Source: Dehalococcoidia bacterium
GTDB lineage: Bacteria; Chloroflexota; Dehalococcoidia; Dehalococcoidales; W111
DNA length: 34,958 bases
Assembly: GCA_011191985.1 (NCBI GenBank)
Contig: DUEU01000083.1
Span: 1 to 34,958, forward strand
Direction: 5' to 3'
A program made the position numbers and the translations under genes. Below, piece after piece: positions 1,412 to 21,823 of this stretch; the first letter of the stretch is position 1; the number at the start of each line of letters is the position of its first letter. The notes below the pieces were generated by a model that did no database searches, was not told where the DNA came from, and saw nothing but the letters and a program-made list of their open reading frames with translations.

Positions 1412-2077
1412 TTGAGTGTAAAGGTTTTAACAATACAAGAATCTATTCTGGGTGCCAACGAGGAGAAAGCCGCCAGCAACCGGGAGTTGCTAAATAAGCA
1501 CGGTATCCTGGCGGTCAATATTATGTCATCACCGGGCGCCGGTAAGACCAGCCTTATCCTGCAAACGACTGGCCACTTCCAGGGGAAGGCCCGGCTCGCG
1601 GTCATAGAGGGAGATGTTGCCTCCACGGTAGATGCCGACAAGGTGAGTGAACGGGGGATACCAGTAGTCCAGATAAACACCGAAGGCGGCTGCCACCTCG
1701 ACGCTAACATGACCAGCCGTGCTCTCGACAACCTGCCACTCAACGAAATCGACCTGCTGTTCATAGAAAATGTGGGTAATCTCATCTGCCCGGCCGAGTT
1801 TGCCCTTGGCGAGCACAAAAAAGTAATGCTGCTGAGCGCCCCCGAGGGTGATGACAAGCCGTATAAATACCCGCCGATGTTCGCCGGGGTCGATGTGGTG
1901 CTGGTAAACAAGACTGATCTTCTGCCCTACCTGGAATTTGATATGACAGCCTTCAACAAGGCGGTCAGCGGCCTAAACCCCAACGCCAGGATATTCCCCG
2001 TCTCCTGCAAGACCGGCGAGGGGCTGGAGAAGTGGTTTTCCTGGCTTGAGACCGAGATGAAAAGGGGTCATCAATAA
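1412..2077 (+). CDS. hypB: Hydrogenase nickel incorporation GTPase HypB (TTG start abutting the hypA stop)
   Basis: NIMSSPGAGKTSLI P-loop, EGGCHLDANM, LVNKTDLLPY. Confidence 0.95.
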   Translation: MSVKVLTIQESILGANEEKAASNRELLNKHGILAVNIMSSPGAGKTSLILQTTGHFQGKARLAVIEGDVASTVDADKVSERGIPVVQINTEGGCHLDANMTSRALDNLPLNEIDLLFIENVGNLICPAEFALGEHKKVMLLSAPEGDDKPYKYPPMFAGVDVVLVNKTDLLPYLEFDMTAFNKAVSGLNPNARIFPVSCKTGEGLEKWFSWLETEMKRGHQ

Positions 2078-2131
2078 AAATCGGCAGCAATTTGACCCAA
2101 AACTATCAACTAACTGCTTACAGGAGTGCAT

Positions 2132-2389
2132 ATGTGTCTGGCCATTCCGGCCCTGGTTAAGTCAATGGACGGCTACTTTGCCGAGGTAGAGATAGGTGGC
2201 CTCACCCGCCAGGCCAGTCTTCAACTCACCCCCGAAGCCAGGGTCGGCGACTACGTACTGCTACATACCGGCTACGCCATAAGCATCATTGACCAGAGAG
2301 AGGCCGAGGAAACCCTCAAGCTGCTGGAGGAGATGGCCAACCAGCCAGATGATTACCACCAGGGGCAGCTTTACACCATGGTGGACTAG
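2132..2389 (+). CDS. hypC: Hydrogenase assembly chaperone HypC/HupF
   Basis: MCLAIPALVKSMDG...AEVEIGG...VGDYVLLHTGYAI; ORF call starts at 2126 but MCLAIP start is at 2132. Confidence 0.94.
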   Translation: MCLAIPALVKSMDGYFAEVEIGGLTRQASLQLTPEARVGDYVLLHTGYAISIIDQREAEETLKLLEEMANQPDDYHQGQLYTMVD

Positions 2390-2392
2390 GGG

Positions 2393-3487
2393 ATGAAGTT
2401 TATCGACGATTACCGTGACCCGAAGCTAGGCCAGAGACTGATAGACCGCATTCAGCACCTCTCGACCACGCCGGTCCGGTTTATGGAGTTCTGCGGCGGG
2501 CATACTGTAGCTATCTTCCGGCACGGCATACGGCAGCTCCTTCCCAGGACTATCGAGATGCTCTCCGGTCCTGGCTGCCCGGTATGTGTCACTGCCAACC
2601 AGGATCTGGATAAAGCCATTGCCCTGGCCAGGCAGCCCGGTGTCATCATCGCCAGCTTCGGCGACATGCTGCGCGTACCCGGCAGCCATTCCAGCCTGCA
2701 GCAGGCCAAGGCCGAAGGCGGTGATGTCAGGGTGGTCTACTCCACCCAGGACGCCCTGGCCATAGCGAGGGAAAATCCGGATAAGGCACTTGTCTTCATC
2801 GGCATCGGCTTCGAGACCACTGCCCCGACCATCGCCGCTTCCATCATCCAGGCGGAGGCCGAGGGCATCAATAACTACTATGTCCTGTCCTTCCACAAAC
2901 TGTGCCCGCCGGTAATGAAGGCCATCCTCGACCTAGGTGAAGTGAGCTTAAGCGGTATTATCTGCCCGGGACATGTCAGCGCCATCATCGGCTCCCATCC
3001 CTACGATTTTATCCCCCAGGACTACGGTATTGCCTGCGCCGTTGCCGGGTTCGAGCCGCTGGACATACTGCTCAGCATCGACATGCTGATCAACCAAATT
3101 GAAACGGAACAGTACCGGGTAGAAATCGCCTACCGCCGCGGGGTGAGGCCGGAAGGCAATCACCAAGCGCTGAAGCTGATGGACTCCGTCTTCGAGACCG
3201 GTGACGCCAACTGGCGCGGTATCGGGATAGTGCCGGCCAGCGGGCTAAAGCTCAGCCAGAAATACCAGCGCTTCGACGCCGAAAGCAACTTCGCTATCGA
3301 CCCCGGACCGGCCCGGGAGCCGGCGGGATGCATCTGCGGCAGTATCCTGCGTGGTATCAGCACCCCTGCCGACTGCCGGCTCTTCAAAAACAGCTGCACT
3401 CCGGAAGACCCGGTCGGCCCGTGCATGGTATCATCAGAGGGCGCCTGTGCTACCTACTATCACTACGGAGACACCGGTGGCGGATAG
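2393..3487 (+). CDS. hypD: Hydrogenase formation protein HypD
   Basis: MEFCGGHTVAIFRHGI, LSGPGCPVCVT, C-terminal Cys-rich FeS region. Confidence 0.95.
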   Translation: MKFIDDYRDPKLGQRLIDRIQHLSTTPVRFMEFCGGHTVAIFRHGIRQLLPRTIEMLSGPGCPVCVTANQDLDKAIALARQPGVIIASFGDMLRVPGSHSSLQQAKAEGGDVRVVYSTQDALAIARENPDKALVFIGIGFETTAPTIAASIIQAEAEGINNYYVLSFHKLCPPVMKAILDLGEVSLSGIICPGHVSAIIGSHPYDFIPQDYGIACAVAGFEPLDILLSIDMLINQIETEQYRVEIAYRRGVRPEGNHQALKLMDSVFETGDANWRGIGIVPASGLKLSQKYQRFDAESNFAIDPGPAREPAGCICGSILRGISTPADCRLFKNSCTPEDPVGPCMVSSEGACATYYHYGDTGGG

Positions 3488-4475
3488 AGTGCTCCTGGCC
3501 CATGGCAGCGGCGGCAAGCTCAGCCACGACCTAGTGGCCAAGAGTCTGGTAGCCGTCCTCGGCAACACGATACTGGACAGGCTGGATGACTCAGCGGTAC
3601 TGGAGGCCAGCGGCCGCCTTGCCTTCACCACCGACAGCTATACTGTCAGCCCCATCTTTTTCCCCGGTGGCGACATCGGCAAGCTGTCGGTCTGCGGCAC
3701 GGTGAACGATTTGGCCATGAGCGGGGCCGCCCCGTTATACTTGAGCCTTTCATTAATTATTGAAGAGGGCCTGCCGCTGGCGGAGCTGGAAACGATAGTC
3801 GCTTCCATCCACCAGGCCGCCAGCGAGGCCGGCGTACAGATTGTCACCGGCGATACCAAGGTAGTCAACCAGGGGAGCGCCGACAAGCTGTTTATCAACA
3901 CCTCGGGTATCGGTATTATCCCCGAGGGGTTAGACATAGCCGGGGCCAACGCCCGGCCGGGCGATAAGGTCATCATCAGCGGCACCATCGGCGACCACGG
4001 CATTGCCATAATGAGCCAGCGTGAGGGTATAGAGTTCAAGGTGCCGATAGTTAGTGACTGCGCCCCGCTAAACAAGCTGGTTGCTGAGATAGTGTCACCG
4101 AATGTCCATTGCCTGCGAGACCCGACCCGGGGTGGCCTGGCGGCCACCCTTAACGAGCTGGCGGGCCAGTCCCGAGTAGGCATCAGGATTGATGAGGTGA
4201 GCCTGCCGGTAGAGGAAGCGGTGCGGGCCGCCTGCGAACTCCTCGGTTTCGATCCCCTCTACATTGCCAACGAGGGCAAGCTGGTAGCCATGGTCGCGCC
4301 CGATGAGGCCGAAGGTATTCTGACTAAAATGCGGCAGAACAAATACGGAACCGGAGCAGCCGCCATCGGTGAGGTTGTCAGTGACCACCCGGGCCGGGTA
4401 ATCATGAAGACACGCCTCGGCTCATCGCGCATCGTGGATATGCCGGTTGGTGAACTGCTACCCAGAATATGCTAG
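3447..4475 (+). CDS. hypE: Carbamoyl dehydratase HypE (GTG start at 3447 or 3477, overlapping hypD)
   Basis: VLLAHGSGGKLSHDLV, DPTRGGLAATLNELA, C-terminal PRIC. Confidence 0.93.
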   Translation: MLPTITTETPVADRVLLAHGSGGKLSHDLVAKSLVAVLGNTILDRLDDSAVLEASGRLAFTTDSYTVSPIFFPGGDIGKLSVCGTVNDLAMSGAAPLYLSLSLIIEEGLPLAELETIVASIHQAASEAGVQIVTGDTKVVNQGSADKLFINTSGIGIIPEGLDIAGANARPGDKVIISGTIGDHGIAIMSQREGIEFKVPIVSDCAPLNKLVAEIVSPNVHCLRDPTRGGLAATLNELAGQSRVGIRIDEVSLPVEEAVRAACELLGFDPLYIANEGKLVAMVAPDEAEGILTKMRQNKYGTGAAAIGEVVSDHPGRVIMKTRLGSSRIVDMPVGELLPRIC

Positions 4476-4486
4476 GATAATAACCT

Positions 4487-4945
4487 ATGACATCGAACCG
4501 GATAGCCGTGGTCGGGGTGGGCAACCTGCTGCTCAAGGACGAAGGGATAGGTATCCATGTCGTCCATGCCCTACAGGAGTCGACCCTGCCGGATGGCGTC
4601 GTTGTAATCGACGGCGGCACGTCACCAGACGTACTGGACTACCTTGAGCCGGCCGATAAACTGGTCATTATTGATGCCGCCGAGGCCGGCGGCGTACCGG
4701 GGGCGATTTACCGCTTCCACCCCGACGACGTAACCCTTGAGACCGGAGAGGCGATCTCGCTCCACGAGCTAGGCCTGGTATCAAACCTGAAGACGATGAG
4801 TCTGCTGGGGAAAACACCGTCGGAGGTTATCATTATCGGCATTCAGCCCAAGGAGATAGCATGGGGCATGGAGCTGTCACCTGAACTCAAGGAAAAGGTG
4901 CCCGAAATCGTAAAGGTAGTGCTGAAGGAGACCGGGCAGCGATGA
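4487..4945 (+). CDS. [NiFe]-hydrogenase maturation protease (HycI/HyaD/HybD family, M52)
   Basis: VVGVGNLLLKDEGIGIHVVHAL, DGGTSPDVLDYLEPADKLVIIDA. Confidence 0.9.
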   Translation: MTSNRIAVVGVGNLLLKDEGIGIHVVHALQESTLPDGVVVIDGGTSPDVLDYLEPADKLVIIDAAEAGGVPGAIYRFHPDDVTLETGEAISLHELGLVSNLKTMSLLGKTPSEVIIIGIQPKEIAWGMELSPELKEKVPEIVKVVLKETGQR

Positions 4946-5331
4946 CCCAGTACATCGGCGTTGACATCATCGAGATAGACCGCATCCGGCAGGCTATCGT
5001 CCGCTGGGGCGACCGTTTCCTCAGCCGGGTGTATACCGGGGACGAACTCAAGCGGTATGGCAATAAGCCGGCGTCACTGGCCTCCCGTTTCGCTGCCAAG
5101 GAAGCGGTAGTCAAGGCCCTCCAGCAGACTGACGGTATCAGCTGGCAGCATATTGAAATCATCTCCGCAGCCAACGGCAGGCCGCTGCTGAACCTCTACG
5201 GCCGGGCTAAAGAGCAGGCCGATAACCTTGGCCTGGCAAGTCTGGATATCTCGCTGGCCCACTCCCGCGATTACGCTATCGCCTTCGTAATCGGCAGCAC
5301 CGGTTCGGAGCCTACTCCAGAAGCTCCATGA
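4942..5331 (+). CDS. acpS: Holo-[acyl-carrier-protein] synthase
   Basis: IGVDIIEIDRIRQAI, ASRFAAKEAVVKAL, ISLAHSRDYAIAFV; ATGA overlap with preceding gene. Confidence 0.93.
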   Translation: MTQYIGVDIIEIDRIRQAIVRWGDRFLSRVYTGDELKRYGNKPASLASRFAAKEAVVKALQQTDGISWQHIEIISAANGRPLLNLYGRAKEQADNLGLASLDISLAHSRDYAIAFVIGSTGSEPTPEAP

Positions 5332-6595
5332 TATGCATCACCTTCACCGGGCTGTCGTGGCGCATGGTGGTATCAATCAGTTGAAATTCACAGCCGGGGC
5401 AGTCAGTAACTACGATATCGGCCCCGGTAGCATCGATGCCGGCCATCTTCTTATCGGCAATCTTCTGAGAGACATCATAGAAATAGATGCTGAAGCTACC
5501 GGCCATACCACAGCAGCGGTCAGCGTTAGGCATCTCAACGTACTCAATATCCGGAATGGACTTTAAAATCTCTCTCGGCTGCCGGGTTATGCCCATATGG
5601 CGGTTGAGATGGCACGGGTCGTGCCAGGTAACCTTCTTGCCTTTAGCCTCGGGCACCGCCCGGTAGGCCGAAGGCGGTAGTTTAAGCACGTCCACCAGAA
5701 ACTCGGTGATGTCCTTAATTTTCCCGGCAAACTTGGTATAGGCCTCCTGGCGCTCCGGAGTATCCGCCAGGAACTTCACATAGTCCTTCATCGCCGAACT
5801 GCAGGTAGCACAATCGGCGACAACGTAATCAAAATCGGCGAACGCCTTAACATTGGTATCGGCCATCTTCCGGCCGGTAGCCAGGTCACCGGCGCCCAGG
5901 AACACCGGGGCACCACAGCAGCCCTGCTCCCGAGGGACAACAACTTCTACCCCGTGCCGGGTCAGGAAATTGATAACCTTCTTACCCACCTCGGGAAAGA
6001 CAAAATCGGTCATGCAGCCAGTGAAATAGCCGACCCTGATGCCAGTCTCATTGGCCACCGTCGGTTTGTTGACCATCGGCACCATCTGCCGCAGGAACCG
6101 CGGGGCAATCTGCGGGATATAGCGGCCTTTACCCAGCGCTGAGAGGAACATGGACAGGTGCCTGATTGTCCCCTGGGTCTTGGGCAGGAAAATTCCCTGA
6201 AACCAGGAAGCGAACCGCACCACGTTACCGAACAGCTTCCGTCGCGGCAGCAGCCAGCGGTAAACAATGTTATATGGGAAGGCTACCCCCTTGGCCTTAA
6301 CTTTGTCCGCCCGAGCGGCAACGATAATATTGGGGATATTGGCCTTAGCCGGGCAGTTGGCGGTACAGGTCATGCACAGGGTACACTTGTTCAGCCGCTC
6401 CGCATACTCCTTGGTGTACTCCAGGTCACCGGCCAGGAGCGCCCGCACCATCATGTTCTTGCCCCGGGCAACCGATGATTCTATGCGCTCTTCCTGGTAT
6501 ACCGGGCACCAGAACGTGCAAAAGCCGCACTTCATGCACTGGCCGAGGTCTTTCTCGAACTTTTTAACCTCTTCAAATTCGGCCTTGCTGGTCAT
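5312..6595 (-). CDS. GlcF/HdrD-like FeS protein: two 4Fe-4S ferredoxin motifs and two CCG domains
   Basis: CMKCGFCTFWCP, CTLCMTCTANCP, GCCGAPVFLGAG, CCGMAGSF. Confidence 0.88.
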   Translation of the reverse strand: MTSKAEFEEVKKFEKDLGQCMKCGFCTFWCPVYQEERIESSVARGKNMMVRALLAGDLEYTKEYAERLNKCTLCMTCTANCPAKANIPNIIVAARADKVKAKGVAFPYNIVYRWLLPRRKLFGNVVRFASWFQGIFLPKTQGTIRHLSMFLSALGKGRYIPQIAPRFLRQMVPMVNKPTVANETGIRVGYFTGCMTDFVFPEVGKKVINFLTRHGVEVVVPREQGCCGAPVFLGAGDLATGRKMADTNVKAFADFDYVVADCATCSSAMKDYVKFLADTPERQEAYTKFAGKIKDITEFLVDVLKLPPSAYRAVPEAKGKKVTWHDPCHLNRHMGITRQPREILKSIPDIEYVEMPNADRCCGMAGSFSIYFYDVSQKIADKKMAGIDATGADIVVTDCPGCEFQLIDTTMRHDSPVKVMHIMELLE

Positions 6596-6596
6596 G

Positions 6597-7988
6597 CTAT
6601 GCCCCTTCCTCTTCCCATATCTTGCCGGGGTTAAGGATGTTGTTGGGGTCCACCATCTTCTTTATCTGCTTCATCAATTCAAGGGCAACCGGGTCCATAG
6701 CCCGGCTGAAGAAGCGTTTTTTCTCCAGGCCAATGCCGTGTTCCCCGGAAAGGACACCGCCCAGCGAAAGCGCTGCTTCAAATATCTCTTCCATCGCCTT
6801 TTCAGCGCGGGCAAACTCCTCCTTATTATTTATATCAGTGAATATCGCCGGATGGAGATTACCATCCCCGGCATGGCCCAGGTACTGGATGAAAAAGCCG
6901 GTCCGCTCCGATATCTCACCCAGCTTCTTAATAAATTCGGCCAGCTTGTCACGGGGCACGGCCACGTCCTCAGCCATAACGGTCTTGGCGGCGCCGAAAA
7001 CGGCGGCGAAGCCAGCGCTACGCATCTTCCAGTAGGCCATTGCCTCGTCGGCATCCTTGGCCACTTTTACCTCTCTAGCCCCGCTCTCTTTAAGGATATC
7101 GACAATCTGTACGTACTCGGCCTCCACGGCGGCCGGAGAACCGTCGGTCTGCAGCAGGATAAGGCAGTTGGCATCCACTGGCAGGCCCATCGGGGTCATC
7201 TCCTCGATACGCCGGATGACAAAGTTGTCCACAAACTCGACCTTGGCCGGCACCACCCCGGCCGCCAAGATGTTGGACACCGCCTGCCCGCCGGCGACCA
7301 TATCATCAAAGATAGCCATCATCGTCTTGCTGGCCTTGGGCAGCGGTATAAGCCGCACCGTTATCTTGGTGATTACCCCCAGAGTCCCCTCGGAGCCGGT
7401 GAACAGCATCATCAGCTCGTAACCGGTGCGGTTCTTCACGGTTACCCCACCGAGCTTCATAATGTGGCCGCTGGCCAGAACCACCTCCAGACCAACGACA
7501 TACTGCTTGGTCACCCCGTATTTCACGCAGTAGGGGCCGCCGGCGTTCTCGGCCACGGTACCCCCCATGGTACAGCCGAGAAAGCTCTGTGGGTCGGGCG
7601 GGTAGAACAGGCCCTCTTTGGCCAGGGCCAAGTTAAAGTCCTGAAGGACCACGCCGGGCTCGACCGTGGCCACCATGTTGCCCTTGCTAATCTCCAGGAT
7701 GCGGTTCATCCTGGTGGTGCACAGCACGATGCCTCCCTTTATGGGGATGGAACCGCCGCTGACATTGATACCCGCCCCCCGCGGGGTTACCGGTATTCGA
7801 TTTTCGTTGGCCAGCTTCAGAGTGCGGGAAATCTGCTCCGCAGTTGTCGGCAGCACCACCACATCGGGCAGGTGTGCCCAGGTCGCAGTGCCATCATAGG
7901 AATAGCTGGTAAGGTCTTCCTTGGCGGTGAGTACCGCCGGCTTGCCGACAATCTCCTGTAACTGGGTGATAATCTCTGGTCTCAGCAT
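6597..7988 (-). CDS. GlcD-like FAD-linked oxidase (D-2-hydroxyacid/glycolate dehydrogenase family)
   Basis: PTTAEQISRTLKLANENRIPVTPRGAGINVSGGSIP FAD-binding motif, C-terminal GVLSGEHGIGLEKKRFF. Confidence 0.9.
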   Translation of the reverse strand: MLRPEIITQLQEIVGKPAVLTAKEDLTSYSYDGTATWAHLPDVVVLPTTAEQISRTLKLANENRIPVTPRGAGINVSGGSIPIKGGIVLCTTRMNRILEISKGNMVATVEPGVVLQDFNLALAKEGLFYPPDPQSFLGCTMGGTVAENAGGPYCVKYGVTKQYVVGLEVVLASGHIMKLGGVTVKNRTGYELMMLFTGSEGTLGVITKITVRLIPLPKASKTMMAIFDDMVAGGQAVSNILAAGVVPAKVEFVDNFVIRRIEEMTPMGLPVDANCLILLQTDGSPAAVEAEYVQIVDILKESGAREVKVAKDADEAMAYWKMRSAGFAAVFGAAKTVMAEDVAVPRDKLAEFIKKLGEISERTGFFIQYLGHAGDGNLHPAIFTDINNKEEFARAEKAMEEIFEAALSLGGVLSGEHGIGLEKKRFFSRAMDPVALELMKQIKKMVDPNNILNPGKIWEEEGA

Positions 7989-8012
7989 ATTGCCCCCCTT
8001 TAGCGGTTTCTA

Positions 8013-8840
8013 TCAACTGCGGCTCTTACCAACCGCCACCTTATCTTCAGCCATCAGGGCCGCCCCCAGGGCGGCCACCAGTTGCGGCTCATCGGGAACG
8101 AGAACGTCAACTCCAACACCTTCTTCAATACTCTTTACCAGGCTGGTATTCTTGGCACCGCCACCGGCCAGGGCACAATCGGGGGCGAATTTAAGCCGTT
8201 CCACCAGGCTCTGTGCCTTGGCGGCCAGCGCCCGATAGACTCCAGCGGCAATGTCTTCCCGGCTCTCGCCTTCAGCAATCCGGGAGACCACCTCCGATTC
8301 GGTGAACACGGCGCAACTGGTAGTGAAATCGACCTTCTTTTTCGACTCCCGAGCCAGCCGATCCATCTCATCAAGGTCAATCTGCAGCACGCGGGCGATT
8401 ATAGCCAGCAAACGGCCGCTGCCGCCGGCGCACTTTTCGCTGAGCACAAAGGCAACCACGTGTCCTGCACCGTCAAGCCGGAAGGCCCGGGTAAACTGGG
8501 CCCCGATATCAACCACCGTCCGTGCCGAGGGGAAGAGATAGGCAATACCCCGGCCCTGGCAGGACAGGTCGCTGGACGACTGGCTGGCTGAGGCGACGCT
8601 GGCCGCCCCGTAACCGGTAGCACTGACACCGGCAATATCCTCAGCAGCAACGCCCGCTCTGGCTAAAGCCTGGTTTATCACTTCATCGGCCACCGCTCGG
8701 TAACTGCCTACCGAGGGTAAAATCGCCCAGGAAATGATGGTCCCGCCCGATAATACCACGGCTTTAGAGAAGCTGGAACCGATATCAACCCCGATAACCG
8801 CTGGGCGGTAACCAGAGCTATCATTATCACTTGCGCTCAT
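8013..8840 (-). CDS. BadF/BadG/BcrA/BcrD-family ATPase (275 aa), BCR subunit or dehydratase activator
   Basis: GVDIGSSFSKAVVL, VVDIGAQFTRAF, EKCAGGSGRLLAI and TTSCAVFTESEVVS (two FeS Cys). Confidence 0.9.
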   Translation of the reverse strand: MSASDNDSSGYRPAVIGVDIGSSFSKAVVLSGGTIISWAILPSVGSYRAVADEVINQALARAGVAAEDIAGVSATGYGAASVASASQSSSDLSCQGRGIAYLFPSARTVVDIGAQFTRAFRLDGAGHVVAFVLSEKCAGGSGRLLAIIARVLQIDLDEMDRLARESKKKVDFTTSCAVFTESEVVSRIAEGESREDIAAGVYRALAAKAQSLVERLKFAPDCALAGGGAKNTSLVKSIEEGVGVDVLVPDEPQLVAALGAALMAEDKVAVGKSRS

Positions 8841-8859
8841 TACCTGTCTCCAGAAAGAC

Positions 8860-9708
8860 CTACGAAAAGAAGGTCGCCTCTTTCAGTGGCTGACGGCTTC
8901 TGGTCACGGGAATACCCTTCTCGGCAGCATCACGCACCGTATCCTTACCCAGAAGGGCCGCGCCGATAGCACCACTAAGTAACGGCTCAGGCGATACCAG
9001 GAGGGGAAGGCCCAGTTTTGTCTCCAGGGCCCTGACCAGTCCGGTATTCAGGGCCCCACCCCCGGTTACTACCACCTCCCTTTCTACCTTCAGGCGCCGG
9101 ACCATCCCGTGTATCCGGGTAGCAATCGCCTTATGGACACCGACCGCCAGGTCGGCCACGGCCACACCTTCGGCCAGCTTCGCCACCACCTCCTGTTCCG
9201 CGAACACGGTACAGGTGTTACTGATTTCAATATCATGCTGAGACTGTAGTGACAGCTCGCCCATCTCCTCCAGAGACAGGCCAAGGGCTTCGGCAATCAC
9301 CTCAAGGAAACGACCGGTGCCGGCGGCACATTTATCATTCATGACGAAATCAACCGCCCGCCCGTCCTTCAGCTTTATCCCCTTACAGTCCTGGCCGCCG
9401 ATATCAATCACCGTCCGAGCCGCCGGCACCAGGCTGGCTACCCCCCGGGCATGACAGGATATCTCGGTAATCTGCCGGTCGGCAAAGGGGACATTAATCC
9501 GGCCATACCCGGTGGCCACGACATAGGCAATATCGCTAAAACCAAGGCCGGCATCAGCCAGGGCCGATTCCATCACCCGGTTAGCCAGCCGGCGGTGCTC
9601 CGGGCCGGAAGCACCGACCACCCGGGCGACCACCGCGTCAGCCATTATTACCACCTTGGTCATAGTGGAGCCAATATCGACCCCGGCGAAATACTCAGTC
9701 ATAGCCAC
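8860..9708 (-). CDS. BadF/BadG/BcrA/BcrD-family ATPase (282 aa), second BCR subunit or dehydratase activator
   Basis: GVDIGSTMTKVVIM, VIDIGGQDCKGIKL, DKCAAGTGRFLEV and SNTCTVFAEQEVV. Confidence 0.92.
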   Translation of the reverse strand: MAMTEYFAGVDIGSTMTKVVIMADAVVARVVGASGPEHRRLANRVMESALADAGLGFSDIAYVVATGYGRINVPFADRQITEISCHARGVASLVPAARTVIDIGGQDCKGIKLKDGRAVDFVMNDKCAAGTGRFLEVIAEALGLSLEEMGELSLQSQHDIEISNTCTVFAEQEVVAKLAEGVAVADLAVGVHKAIATRIHGMVRRLKVEREVVVTGGGALNTGLVRALETKLGLPLLVSPEPLLSGAIGAALLGKDTVRDAAEKGIPVTRSRQPLKEATFFS

Positions 9709-9721
9709 TCCAGCAGGCGCT

Positions 9722-11074
9722 TTAACCTGCCCGGCTTTTCACCGCCTCCAGGGTATCAATAAAGGCGTCTATCCTGGCCCGGGTATCGGCCTCATTGTAG
9801 GAACTGATATCAATAATATCGCTTTCCAGAACCAGGGAGGGGATGTCGCGATATATCTTCTTCAGCAGGTTCAGCTGCCAAATAAGGCCGACATGCCAGC
9901 TGCGGCAGGAAAAGGCCTCATGCATAACCACACCGTCTATCTGGTAATCCTCAATATAATCAATGAGCCGCTCAACATCAGGGTGCGAGCCGGGACGCTG
10001 CCGGGTCTTGTCATAGCGGCAGGTCCAGAACTTCAGCCACCGCCAGGCGATATGCTCCAGAGGGTCGGTTATCCGAGCGAAATCAATATCAAAGTTGTAC
10101 AGCGCCTCCACCATTCGATAGGTAGTCTCCGCCGGGAAGACCGCGCCCTTACTGTTGAAGTAGTTGAAGTCCGTCAGGGCAAACCAGGACGGCAAACCGC
10201 CACCCCAGAGCAGGCGATATTTCTCATCGGGGATAACACCCTCTTTCCGGGCAATCTTCTGCTGCAATTCGTCATACAGCTCTTTAAAAAAGTCATAGCC
10301 CTGCTGAGTGCCCATCATAAAGCTCAAGGGCACCATGGTATTCATGGCGTCACCGGTGCCCATCGGCGTCGGCACCGCTCGGCGCAACTCATACGCCTCA
10401 TGGACCAGGTTCCAGGTCCGGTCGGTCAGGTCAACCAGCTCGCTGAGCCGGTCCCAGTCCATCTTGCGATTGGTATGTCTTTCCAGGAATTCGACCAGAC
10501 CCCGGAGTTGCGCCACCATGTATTTTACATAGTCGTCCTGGACCTCACGGTAATCGTAATCTTCCTCATAGGGCGGCCAGGGCAGGTTCAGGTCATAGGT
10601 CGGGACATCAGGCATATAGTGCTGGGCGGCCTGAAACCACTTGTTGCGCGGGTCGCAGAGCATCTGACCACTGCCCAGCATTACATCCGGTTTCACCTGC
10701 CCCCCCCAGGGGGCATCTGGCGGCATCTCTCCCCCCAACTCCTCGCGCCAGGCATCAAAGCCGAGACCACAGAGGGCATAGGTGCACAGGGAACGGGAGA
10801 GGTTCTCTGCCTCCGCCCTCTCCAGGAACCGCTGGGCATCACGCTTGGCACCACAGATACCGGCATAGTTCTCGACCCAATGAGGGGTAATATCCATAGC
10901 GCGGATAATCTCGTCGTAACAGCAGCAGATAAAGGAGTAAGCTATAGGCCTCCCTTCTCCCTTGGCCTGCGGCACATTAGCCAGCATGGCTTTAGTCATG
11001 GAGCCGACCCGGCCGGCGGCCTCGGTTGCTGTCCTTCTCTTCTTTCTCTCCTCCGGTTTCTTCTCTTCTGTCAT
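9722..11074 (-). CDS. Benzoyl-CoA reductase/2-hydroxyacyl-CoA dehydratase large subunit (BcrB/BzdO/HgdB superfamily, 450 aa)
   Basis: PIAYSFICCCYDEIIRAMDITPHWVENYAGICGAKRD, SLCTYALCGLG, WGGGLPSWFALTDFNYFNSKGA; adjacency to activator ATPases. Confidence 0.85.
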   Translation of the reverse strand: MTEEKKPEERKKRRTATEAAGRVGSMTKAMLANVPQAKGEGRPIAYSFICCCYDEIIRAMDITPHWVENYAGICGAKRDAQRFLERAEAENLSRSLCTYALCGLGFDAWREELGGEMPPDAPWGGQVKPDVMLGSGQMLCDPRNKWFQAAQHYMPDVPTYDLNLPWPPYEEDYDYREVQDDYVKYMVAQLRGLVEFLERHTNRKMDWDRLSELVDLTDRTWNLVHEAYELRRAVPTPMGTGDAMNTMVPLSFMMGTQQGYDFFKELYDELQQKIARKEGVIPDEKYRLLWGGGLPSWFALTDFNYFNSKGAVFPAETTYRMVEALYNFDIDFARITDPLEHIAWRWLKFWTCRYDKTRQRPGSHPDVERLIDYIEDYQIDGVVMHEAFSCRSWHVGLIWQLNLLKKIYRDIPSLVLESDIIDISSYNEADTRARIDAFIDTLEAVKSRAG

Positions 11075-11103
11075 TTACCTCTCCCGCTAGTCATCACTGC
11101 CGA

Positions 11104-12264
11104 TTACTTCGCACCAAGTAACTCCAGGAATGCCTGGACTCTGGTCCGCAACCGGCCAATTGTCGACTTTGAATACTCGTCCTCAAGGTAGAGCACCGGC
11201 GTACCCAGCGACTCTATATAGCTTTTAACAGCCGGCACCTCGAAGCCGAACGGGTCACAATACTTATAGATGTAGAGGATAACACCATCGACCGCAAAAT
11301 CTCTGATGAAACCGCCGATATGACCGAACCGCTCCTCAAGATACTCAGGGTATGTCCCCTTTTGCTCACGGTAGGTCCGGGCGCACTTTATCTTCTGCAG
11401 GTAGCGCTCGGCCAGGCCGTCTATCGGGTCGGCGGTAATATCCGCGTCAGGCCAGAACTCCCGGGTACCCGGACATAGGTCATCAGCAACCACCCAGGCA
11501 CCGCTGTCTTCGATCAGCCGGATAAAGGTATCATCGTCAAGCTGGGCACCAACCACCATTATCCGCGGCTTCTCTACCCCGGTAGCGCTCGCCCTCGGCT
11601 TCACTTCAGCAATAACGTCACCCAGCAGACTGATTGATTCCTCCACGGGGATACTCATGATAGCAATCAAGGCCCTGGCCAGCTCCTCGCCCGAGATGAG
11701 GGGCGGGTCAGACCTACGCAAGCCGGCAAGTTGCCGCACCCGGGCCCGGTTCTCGTTGTGCTGCTTGATTGCCTGAAGCAGGCTATCATCCGATATCTCC
11801 CGGCCGGCGAACTTGCCCAGGCTTTTACGGAAGGTATTCAGTACCGTCTTATAGAACTCCAGTGATGTGTCGTTATCGCTATGGGGCATGTTGATGAAGT
11901 GAGAATAGGGCAAGCCAAGCGTATATTTCCAGACATCATAGGTTCGACAGATACTGTCACAGGCATGGGGTATAACCAGGCCATCCAGGAACTCGTACCG
12001 ACCCTTGACCGCCAGGTCAAAGCAACTGCGTACCAGTGGGCAGACGATGGTCTCCATCTCAACATCGGCCCGGGTAATGGGCTCACTGACACTACCTTTT
12101 ATTCGAAACGGGACAAACCCGGCAGCGGTGATTATCTCCACGGGAACGTAGGCGCATAAACCGCCAATTATCTTTCTGCCCTGACCTTTCAGCTCCCGGG
12201 CACGACTGCCGTAATCCTGGCAGTATTTATCCACCAGGGCCATCCCGCCAGCTTCAACTTTCAT
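11104..12264 (-). CDS. Benzoyl-CoA reductase/2-hydroxyacyl-CoA dehydratase second subunit (BcrC/BzdN/HgdA superfamily, 386 aa)
   Basis: CPLVRSCFDLAVKG, VIPHACDSICRTYDVWKY, LYIYKYCDPFGFEVPAVKSYIESLGTPVLYLEDEYSKSTIGRLRTRVQAFLE. Confidence 0.88.
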   Translation of the reverse strand: MKVEAGGMALVDKYCQDYGSRARELKGQGRKIIGGLCAYVPVEIITAAGFVPFRIKGSVSEPITRADVEMETIVCPLVRSCFDLAVKGRYEFLDGLVIPHACDSICRTYDVWKYTLGLPYSHFINMPHSDNDTSLEFYKTVLNTFRKSLGKFAGREISDDSLLQAIKQHNENRARVRQLAGLRRSDPPLISGEELARALIAIMSIPVEESISLLGDVIAEVKPRASATGVEKPRIMVVGAQLDDDTFIRLIEDSGAWVVADDLCPGTREFWPDADITADPIDGLAERYLQKIKCARTYREQKGTYPEYLEERFGHIGGFIRDFAVDGVILYIYKYCDPFGFEVPAVKSYIESLGTPVLYLEDEYSKSTIGRLRTRVQAFLELLGAK

Positions 12265-12294
12265 GAATCGTCCCGACTCCTTTCCTTATTTGGC

Positions 12295-13503
12295 TCAAAT
12301 AATTACCTCCTCCTCTTTGAGCTTGGCGATGTCTTCCCAAGTATAGCCGAGTTCCAGCAGTATCTCCTCAGTATGCTGCCCGAATTCGGGCGCCTCGCGC
12401 CGCCACTCGGCCGGCGTATTGCTGAAGTCCCAGGGGAAGCCGACCATCTTTATCCGGCCCCACACCGGGTGGTCAACGTATATGAAGTAGTTATTGGCTA
12501 TGGCCTGCTCATCATTGGACACCTCTATCGGGGACTGAATCGGGGTACAGATACAACCTTCCTTCCGTAGAATCTGCAGCCATTCGTCCCGGGGCTTGGC
12601 GCCGAACTTCTTGTCCATGATGGCCACCAACTCTTTGGTATTTTCGGCCCTGGCCTCAATGGAATTAAAGCGGAGGTCTTTCTCAAGCTCGGTGATACCC
12701 AGTGCCCGGCAGACATTCGGCCAGTACCGGTCCGGCTGCAGGTGAGCTATAGCAATCCATTTATCGTCCTGACAGCGGTAGTGATTGTATATCGGATTAC
12801 CTGCCTGGGCCCGGACTGCCCTGGGAAACTCCTGACCCAGTATTGCCGGGGCGGCCATAATCAGGCCGAGCATGGCAATCAGGCTGCCCATCAGCGAAGT
12901 GTCCACCATCTGCCCCTTGCCGGTCTTTTCCCGCCCGTAGAGGGCCGCAGTAACCGCCCAGGCGCAGACAAGCCCCCCCAGCTCATCGCCCATCCCGGGC
13001 AGAATCTGGGCCGGCGGCCCGCCACGCTCGCCACAGGACATCATCAGTCCGGACCGGGCAATTCCGGTGTAATCAAAGGAGTAATCATTGGCATCGGGGC
13101 CTTTACGACCCCAGCCTGAGGCCTGAGCATAAATGAGCCGCGGATTCCGGGCCATGAGCACATCCGGGCCAATGCCCATTCTTATCGGCGCTTCGATACT
13201 CATGTTATTCAGGAAAACGTCAGCCTCATCAATAAGCTTGAAGAACACTTCCTTGCCTTTTGCCGTCGTCATATCAATGACAATGCTCCGCTTGTTACGG
13301 TTATTGTTCTCAAAGTAGTAGTTCCGCCCCTTAAGGCCAGCCTCGACGCCAATAATCCTCATGAACCCCCGCGCCGGGTCCCCGGTCTTTGGCTCTACCT
13401 TGATGACATCGGCACCCAGGTCTCCCAGCCTCATCCCCGCCACCGGTCCCTGCTGAAACATGGATATCTCTACTACCTTAACCCCTGTTAAAGGTCCAGC
13501 CAT
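12295..13503 (-). CDS. CaiB/BaiF class III CoA-transferase (start corrected from 13533)
   Basis: MAGPLTGVKVVEISMFQQGPVAGMRLGDLGADVIKVEP, NRNKRSIVIDMTTAKGKEVF; GAGGAGG RBS upstream of ATG 13503. Confidence 0.93.
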   Translation of the reverse strand: MAGPLTGVKVVEISMFQQGPVAGMRLGDLGADVIKVEPKTGDPARGFMRIIGVEAGLKGRNYYFENNNRNKRSIVIDMTTAKGKEVFFKLIDEADVFLNNMSIEAPIRMGIGPDVLMARNPRLIYAQASGWGRKGPDANDYSFDYTGIARSGLMMSCGERGGPPAQILPGMGDELGGLVCAWAVTAALYGREKTGKGQMVDTSLMGSLIAMLGLIMAAPAILGQEFPRAVRAQAGNPIYNHYRCQDDKWIAIAHLQPDRYWPNVCRALGITELEKDLRFNSIEARAENTKELVAIMDKKFGAKPRDEWLQILRKEGCICTPIQSPIEVSNDEQAIANNYFIYVDHPVWGRIKMVGFPWDFSNTPAEWRREAPEFGQHTEEILLELGYTWEDIAKLKEEEVII

Positions 13504-13552
13504 AAATCGATACCTCCTCTGGCTATTAGGCAAATAGTGCCTCTGCTCCTTT

Positions 13553-13582
13553 AGTATAAGGCTCTTGGGGAAACCACGTCAA
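13553..13582 (-). promoter_or_regulatory. Promoter of the CoA-transferase/BCR-like/GlcDF operon
   Basis: Minus strand TTGACG (13582-13577), 18 nt, TATACT (13558-13553). Confidence 0.65.
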
Positions 13583-20449: not shown

Positions 20450-21823
20450 ATGGAGAGAGCCATGTATTTTCTAGACCAGAAGGATATGCCGACCCACTGG
20501 TACAATATCATCCCTGATTTACCCGAGCCGCTGCCACCTCTGGTCCATCCGGCTACCAAGGAACCCCTGCCAAAGGAAGGCCCCCTGCCGCCACCCCTCT
20601 TTACGGATTCGGTCAACAAGCAGGAGTTCAGCCAGGAGCGCTATATTGAAATCCCCGACGAAGTGCTGGAAGCCTATCGCACCTACCGGCCGACAGTCCT
20701 GCACCGGGCGTTTCGGCTGGAGAAGGCCCTGGACACACCAGCCAAGATTTTCTACAAATATGAAGGTACCAGCCAAGCCGGCAGCCACAAGCCCAACACA
20801 GCCATAGCCCAGGCCTACTACGCTAAAAAGGAAGGAGTCAAGCGTTTAACCACCGAGACCGGCGCTGGACAGTGGGGTAGCGCCCTCGCTTTCGGCTGCG
20901 CCTTCTTCGGTCTGGAATGCAAGGTCTACATGGTCCGGGTAAGCTACAACCAGAAGCCGTACCGCCGTATCCTGATGGAGACCTGGGGAGCCCAGGCCGT
21001 CCCCAGCCCCAGCCCGGATACCGAGGTCGGCCGCCGCTTTCTGGCAGAGAATCCCGAACACACTGGGAGCCTGGGGATTGCTATCAGTGAAGCCTGCGAG
21101 GATGCTTACGCCAACGACGATACCAAGTACACCATCGGCAGCGTCGTCAACCACGTCCTGCTCCACCAGACCATCATCGGTGAGGAGACCCGGAAGCAGA
21201 TGGAGATGGCCGATGCCTACCCGGATATTATTGTCGGCTGCATTGGTGGCGGCTCCAACTTCGCCGGCCAGTTCCTGCCCTGGATAAGGGACAAGCTAAG
21301 CGGTAAGAAGCCGGATATGCGCATTATTTGCGTTGAACCATATGCCGCCCCCACCCTGACCAAGGGGCCCTACGCCTGGGACTACGGCGATATTGCCGGT
21401 CTGGCGCCGATAGTGAGAATGTACACCCTGGGACATGATTTTATCCCGCCGCCAGTCCATGCCGGTGGTCTGCGCTATCATGGCATGGCGCCCATTATCT
21501 GCCACCTTTACAAGCTTGGCTTTGTCGAGGCCCAGGCGGTGCACCAGGTAGCTACATTCGAAGCCGGGGTTACGTTTGCCCGAACTGAAGGTATTATTAC
21601 CGCCCCGGAACCCTGCCACGACCTCAGGGTAGCCATTGACGAGGCCCTCAAGTGCAAGGAGTCAGGTGAGTCGAAGACCATCCTTATTGCCCATAGCGGG
21701 CACGGACACTTCGACCTGGCTGCCTATGACGAATACCTATCCGGCCGGCTACAGGACTATGAATACCCGGAGGAAAAGGTAAAGGAAGCCCTGAAAAACC
21801 TGCCCGAGGTGCCCGCCTTTTAA
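20450..21823 (+). CDS. TrpB2-type tryptophan synthase beta-like PLP enzyme
   Basis: [90 protein letters not shown]. Confidence 0.92.

Follow-up and report, generated by a model that had tools for sequence, protein, structure and literature searches.

A conserved seven-gene operon of Dehalococcoidia encodes a candidate ATP-driven acyl-CoA reductase outside the characterized branches sampled

What does an enzyme of the benzoyl-coenzyme A (CoA) reductase and 2-hydroxyacyl-CoA dehydratase superfamily do when its two subunits and two ATPases share an operon with a CaiB-type CoA-transferase and a GlcD/GlcF pair? This question is raised by a locus of a Dehalococcoidia bacterium (GenBank assembly GCA_011191985.1, contig DUEU01000083.1), of which we analyzed a stretch of 34,958 nucleotides (nt), referred to as the window herein, from a 2.0-Mb bin. 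The operon reads from position 13503 to 5312 on the minus strand, and none of its seven genes has internal stops (Table 1). A first-pass annotation of the letters alone had proposed seven same-strand genes with gaps of 1-30 nt, and both the coordinates (gaps of 30, 29, 13, 19, 24, and 1 nt, in order) and the Pfam domains bear this out. We give an even chance to the leading reading, in which these genes specify a class-I-type acyl-CoA reductase, driven by ATP and probably acting on an aryl-CoA, of an undescribed lineage; its direction, reduction, and its aryl substrate are what we infer.

Table 1. Features of the operon, in order of transcription (aa, amino acids; FAD, flavin adenine dinucleotide).
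Feature	Position	Strand	Basis
Sigma-70-like promoter, TTGACG-N18-TATACT	13553..13582	-	Best regional match, 10/12
Class III (CaiB/BaiF) CoA-transferase, 402 aa	12295..13503	-	Pfam CoA_transf_3, 2.5e-114
Beta (BzdN-like), 386 aa, predicted [8Fe-9S] double-cubane carrier	11104..12264	-	Pfam HGD-D, 2.4e-85
Alpha (BzdO-like), 450 aa, predicted active-site [4Fe-4S] carrier	9722..11074	-	Pfam HGD-D, 7.3e-58
Activase ATPase 1, 282 aa, GTG start	8860..9708	-	Pfam BcrAD_BadFG; CoA_E_activ 275.8 bits
Activase ATPase 2, 275 aa	8013..8840	-	Pfam BcrAD_BadFG; CoA_E_activ 221.9 bits
GlcD-type FAD-linked 2-hydroxyacid oxidase/dehydrogenase, 463 aa	6597..7988	-	Pfam FAD_binding_4 + FAD-oxidase_C
GlcF/LdhH-like iron-sulfur protein, 427 aa	5312..6595	-	Pfam Fer4_8 + CCG

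The operon is real and conserved, since the identical order CaiB-beta-alpha-ATPase1-ATPase2-GlcD-GlcF recurs in at least six other genomes (loci L031, L036, L037, L038, L039, and L148). Two of these six loci carry a metallo-beta-lactamase-fold gene after CaiB, and some a second or split CaiB. At L033 and L035 the order is nearly complete where the contigs end. Alpha is 78-84% identical to its window counterpart, beta 67-75%, and GlcD and GlcF 75-84%, and the GlcDF link is part of what is conserved. The records of L035 and L039 are titled Deltaproteobacteria; with an operon of the Dehalococcoidia type in the same setting, they may be mislabeled or mixed bins. This conservation is stronger evidence for an operon than its promoter. 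The promoter that the annotation had placed before the operon is present, ∼50 nt upstream of the CaiB ATG, but sites of this type numbered 9 in our scan versus 5.4 ± 2.1 in shuffles and were not significantly rarer in shuffled sequence; taken alone, it is not beyond chance.

Upon searching Pfam and NCBIfam, we found the domains that had been proposed, and neither HGD-D subunit reached an equivalog cut-off. Scores against cut-offs, in bits, were 173/453.8 (BzdN), 100.7/448.6 (BzdO), and 163.8/380.2 (BzdQ) for the Bzd models, 81.4/486.6 (BcrB), 154.6/421 (BcrC), and 153.9/578 (BcrA) for the Bcr models, and 97.1/750 (HadB) and 154.9/700 (HadC) for the Had models, all of them below. The ATPases, at 275 and 282 aa, also fall short of the long (∼430 aa) BcrA of the Thauera Bcr type. 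In joint and separate trees, the window alpha and beta subunits grouped with orthologues from Dehalococcoidia and Desulfobacterota (SH-aLRT, the Shimodaira-Hasegawa-like approximate likelihood ratio test, 100 and 99). The alpha and beta trees agreed on this clade, which is sister to a second, unstudied Dehalococcoidia group (support of 98-99) and stands apart from Bzd/Thn, Had/Hgd/Mbd, and the double-cubane cluster protein (DCCP) in both. The lineage is new with respect to the references in these trees, which lack true Thauera-type BcrBC: a search for tree references found no BcrB above the curated cut-off in 85 genomes of the class of NaphS2, and plasmid matches considered as BcrB references were rejected as single-activator dehydratase types or divergent. 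We noted an HGD-D pair with two activases on a Rhizobium leguminosarum plasmid (L154), which was divergent in both trees and adjoins genes for an ABC substrate-binding protein, a rhodanese, and transporters. By the tests made on these sequences, the operon enzyme falls outside the Bzd, Bcr, Mbd, and Had families.

To compare the predicted cluster sites, we took the ligand positions in BzdNO from the structure paper (PMC11971306). In the phmmer alignment, beta residues C37, C75, C102, C264, C294, and C336 correspond to BzdN Cys36/73/100/263/293/327, and all six were invariant in 18 orthologues. The AlphaFold model of beta (mean predicted local distance difference test, pLDDT, of 83.9) resembled BzdN most closely, with 8s02_B as the best fold match (TM 0.89, E 1.5e-29). 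In alpha, the predicted [4Fe-4S] ligands C97, C140, and C390 and the catalytic E68 are kept (Cys95/128/380 and Glu65 in BzdO). However, BzdO His131 is replaced by R143, an Arg in the window clade and in most of the sister group, and near Trp46, which is not retained, the aligned stretch is ICCC. Extra Cys residues are conserved as well, Cys51 in 44/45 orthologues and both Cys74 and Cys102 in 45/45; the AlphaFold model of alpha, with a mean pLDDT of 51.6, was unusable for placing them. The operon enzyme is like BzdNOPQ (8s02) in its beta-alpha-ATPase-ATPase order, its six double-cubane Cys, and its three active-site Cys with Glu, and unlike it in its low scores, separate clade, and rebuilt active site. 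Of the Bzd resemblance that the annotation had proposed, the N-O-P-Q order and the sizes held, while Bzd membership did not.

The beta subunit scores 223 bits with the DCCP model versus 173 bits with BzdN, as might be expected if the enzyme were a DCCP-like low-potential small-molecule reductase or electron-activating enzyme with no CoA substrate. We regard this as very improbable: DCCP (6eno), which has double-cubane ligands too, is a homodimer served by one ATPase and groups elsewhere in the trees, whereas the operon encodes a heterodimer with a catalytic-type alpha, contains CaiB, and has CoA ligases adjoining its Desulfobacterota core.

Both ATPases exceed the CoA_E_activ cut-off of 125.4 bits and, with their paired Cys, belong to the acyl-CoA dehydratase activase/BadF-BcrA ATPase family. 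The two are 42% identical to each other. The residues predicted to bind an inter-subunit [4Fe-4S] cluster were kept in every orthologue compared (ATPase1 C127 and C166, 37/37; ATPase2 C137 and C176, 29/29). ATPase1 is MbdQ/HadI/HgdC-like, with MbdQ as its closest relative in the PDB. MbdONPQ (9g87), a 3-methylbenzoyl-CoA reductase, likewise has two ATPases, but it is distant in the trees.

Among the remaining partners, CaiB has a GMGD motif at the expected position of the catalytic Asp, and its closest PDB relatives are SUGCT, YfdW, and benzylsuccinate CoA-transferase. Its start is the ATG behind AGGAGG (402 aa); a TTG start (412 aa) is unlikely. GlcD has the domains of a GlcD-type D-2-hydroxyacid dehydrogenase and intact active-site motifs (HAGDGNLH, of the form HxxxxxxH, and GEHG), with glycolate oxidase 9qgz and LctD 7qh2 closest in the PDB, and scores 482.5 against a GlcD equivalog cut-off of 567.9, below it. 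The protein in the GlcF position has two 4Fe-4S motifs and two CCG domains and is nearer to CCG proteins of the LdhH/TfrB/GlpC type than to GlcF. We infer that GlcDF may oxidize a 2-hydroxy acid and that CaiB may load CoA.

Such partners bring in the strongest rival to a reductase, a 2-hydroxyacyl-CoA (e.g., aryllactyl-CoA) dehydratase pathway in which GlcDF would interconvert a 2-hydroxy and a 2-oxo acid, CaiB would act like FldA, and alpha/beta would dehydrate. We consider it unlikely. CaiB and GlcDF are natural partners of this pathway, Fld has a CaiB partner as the window does, and alpha resembles HadB in having no His at the His131 position. In one Dehalococcoidia family (f32), iorAB genes over NCBIfam cut-offs convergently adjoin the operon, and their product could oxidize arylpyruvate and yield reduced ferredoxin. 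IorAB was nevertheless rejected as a general partner, being adjacent only in f32, and the genome of the window has no IOR_alpha match at E ≤ 1e-60. HadBC, HgdAB, and FldBC share the superfamily, yet those sampled have a single activator, incomplete double-cubane ligands, and a separate clade. The operon instead has two different ATPase genes in place of one homodimeric activator, and its beta cluster is not reduced: the Cys36/263 equivalents are present, whereas HadC, a Fusobacterium HgdB-like protein, and the other single-activator beta subunits sampled miss at least two of the six Cys, the dehydratase-type ones lacking positions 36/263 or more. While the annotation had also likened the operon to Fld/Had pathways, nothing sequence-specific links the two. 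Its idea of a hybrid, new pathway is supported in part, by subunits outside the characterized clades sampled, two distinct ATPases, and a conserved GlcDF link; the enzyme itself belongs to neither Bzd nor Fld/Had.

We then turn to the genome of the window. Adjacent had and oah genes, which the annotation had named as downstream genes to look for, lie on another contig, both above their curated cut-offs (468/338.7 and 518.9/464.5). The Bzd-like class I set of this genome, its had-oah pair, and its bamBCDE-like class II cluster are found at G000:C65 (L114, L115), G000:C58 (L116), and G000:C43 (L215), and the window operon is accompanied by several distinct ring-reduction systems. In the Bzd-like set, BzdQ is above its cut-off and BzdO scores 425/448.6, with Old Yellow Enzyme-type flavoenzymes nearby. 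The genome holds about eleven HGD-D pairs (23 matches), with many beta subunits lacking most cluster Cys, and 20 aldehyde-ferredoxin-oxidoreductase-type matches.

Oah was above cut-off in 12/14 Desulfobacterota hosts and 5/10 Dehalococcoidia hosts of the operon enzyme (the genome of the window counted) and in only 2/14 sister-group hosts. Among 101 relatives, it occurred in 5/8 hosts versus 6/93 others (Fisher p 2.8e-4, kinship uncorrected). In two genomes (G053 and G572) the window-type alpha/beta is the sole class-I-type pair. We dropped the idea that no benzoyl-CoA reductase but the operon enzyme feeds Had/Oah, since both genomes also carry BamB (that of G572 matches 4z3w with 1048.7 bits). 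Because BamB is present in the same genomes, the Oah link points to an aromatic-degrading setting and not to the reaction. The BamB frame of G053 (L208:4821-6818) is interrupted by one in-frame TAG at codon 418, which may reflect misassembly, a pseudogene, or recoding.

This gene content bears on whether the operon encodes a second ordinary reductase of benzoyl-CoA (or hydroxy- or methylbenzoyl-CoA), divergent but equivalent to Bzd or Mbd. The layout and ligands are the same, Had and Oah occur in the same genome, and strict anaerobes that have both class I and class II enzymes have been described (PMC4148979; PMC6129605). Still, we find this doubtful, given that the host already holds a Bzd-like set and BamB, that His131 is replaced, and that the operon has CaiB and GlcDF in place of the ferredoxin and oxidoreductase genes of Bzd-like and Thn clusters. 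With class II BamB in this host and in many others, the operon enzyme need not be the benzoyl-CoA reductase of its host. Thn is a further ATP-dependent class I relative from a strict anaerobe that also holds class II enzymes. NaphS2 has both kinds, but its thn copy groups with Bzd and its window-type copy lies at a different locus without thn genes; equating the latter with the thn operon was rejected, as the thn genes are at L126.

In class I chemistry, ATPases energize electrons from ferredoxin, a double cubane stores them, and the alpha cluster reduces the CoA-bound substrate. On the reductase reading, CaiB would transfer CoA to a carboxylic acid to give its thioester, and a [4Fe-4S]-bridged ATPase1/ATPase2 heterodimer would drive electrons into the beta double cubane at the cost of ATP. 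From there they would pass to the alpha [4Fe-4S] cluster, where a one-electron (Birch-like) reduction of the substrate would occur. GlcD/GlcF would oxidize a pathway-linked 2-hydroxy acid and send the electrons onward via CCG-type Fe-S clusters. The annotation had offered two roles for this pair, substrate oxidation or the feeding of low-potential electrons, and either may apply; a 2-hydroxy acid is expected to release its electrons at too positive a potential for direct ferredoxin reduction. Since class II BamB, Had, and Oah are also found in many hosts, the substrate would most likely be an aromatic or heteroaromatic acyl-CoA distinct from plain benzoyl-CoA. A more specific proposal, improbable as a whole, is a reduction new to known enzymes, for example a Birch-type one or a reductive removal of a ring substituent, that acts on a hydroxylated, amino-, or N-heteroaromatic acyl-CoA at an active site altered by the Arg in place of His131 and by Cys51 (near Trp46), Cys74, and Cys102, with GlcDF-linked 2-hydroxyacid oxidation in the same operon.

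In favor of a class-I-type reductase we count the six invariant Cys of beta and its BzdN-like model, the two distinct ATPases, the ligands and Glu kept in alpha, the agreement of the two trees, the recurring gene order, the intact GlcD motifs, the distribution of Oah, the transporter and CoA-ligase neighbors in Syntrophaceae and relatives, and the molybdenum enzyme of G077 described below. Several points weigh against it. The alpha tree does not settle how its three groups branch at depth. CaiB and GlcDF would also fit a 2-hydroxyacyl-CoA pathway. Three of the six double-cubane Cys are missing from MbdN, which is part of a genuine aryl-CoA reductase; the six-Cys test separates beta from the sampled dehydratases but, judged on these sequences, is an imperfect marker of reaction type. 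With Arg in place of the acid/base residue His131 and Trp46 not conserved, the chemistry may differ from that of BzdO. BamB and shared host ancestry account for at least part of the Oah link, and in one genome (G153) alpha/beta occur without neighboring ATPases, CaiB, or GlcDF, and without Oah. Lastly, the open-access literature yielded no assayed member of the clade. Nor did we find there a paper describing this seven-gene arrangement, or any reductase of the window type for hydroxynicotinoyl-, isonicotinoyl-, or aminobenzoyl-CoA.

Few ATP-driven acyl-CoA reductases of this superfamily have an assigned reaction. Here, a clade conserved in two phyla combines predicted double-cubane and active-site clusters with a rebuilt active site and a GlcDF operon partner that is absent from the canonical clusters examined. 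Its defined, expressible gene set offers access to the substrates reduced by Dehalococcoidia of anoxic sediments and by Syntrophaceae, and a route to how a low-potential double cubane serves outside benzoyl-CoA chemistry.

In Desulfobacterota, the order is ATPase2-beta-alpha-ATPase1, often, as in Syntrophaceae and relatives, behind genes for a LIV-type ABC transporter and an AMP-CoA ligase. Single copies come with a CaiB of 72% identity (L061) or with GlcD and GlcF as separate genes (L040); upstream of two copies (L055 and L063) lies a whole or partial GlcDF-type fusion. NaphS2 locus L129 encodes a fused GlcD-GlcF (866 aa), a lone HGD-D protein, one ATPase, and, judged from similarity to neighbors, CoA-ligase-like and thiolase-like proteins. 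As the Desulfobacterota copies and L129 have them, CoA activation and GlcDF recur beside the HGD-D superfamily. In G077, alpha/beta adjoin genes for a molybdenum enzyme resembling 4-hydroxybenzoyl-CoA reductase and for an arylformamidase-like protein, neither of which reaches its cut-off. The sister group in Dehalococcoidia (L131-L145) has alpha/beta/two-ATPase clusters with a B12-dependent acyl-CoA mutase, a MaoC-type hydratase, thiolase-like genes, and a ∼700-aa CCG protein; an acetone-induced benzoyl-CoA-reductase/hydroxyglutaryl-CoA-dehydratase pair of Desulfosarcina cetonica (PMC7888143) is a possible lead for this group. Elsewhere in the window, hydrogenase maturation genes (HypB-like, HypD, HypE-like, and a HycI-type protease) occupy 1412-4945 on the plus strand and converge on the operon, and a TrpB-like (TrpB2) pyridoxal-phosphate enzyme, above two NCBIfam cut-offs, is encoded at 20450-21823 on the plus strand.

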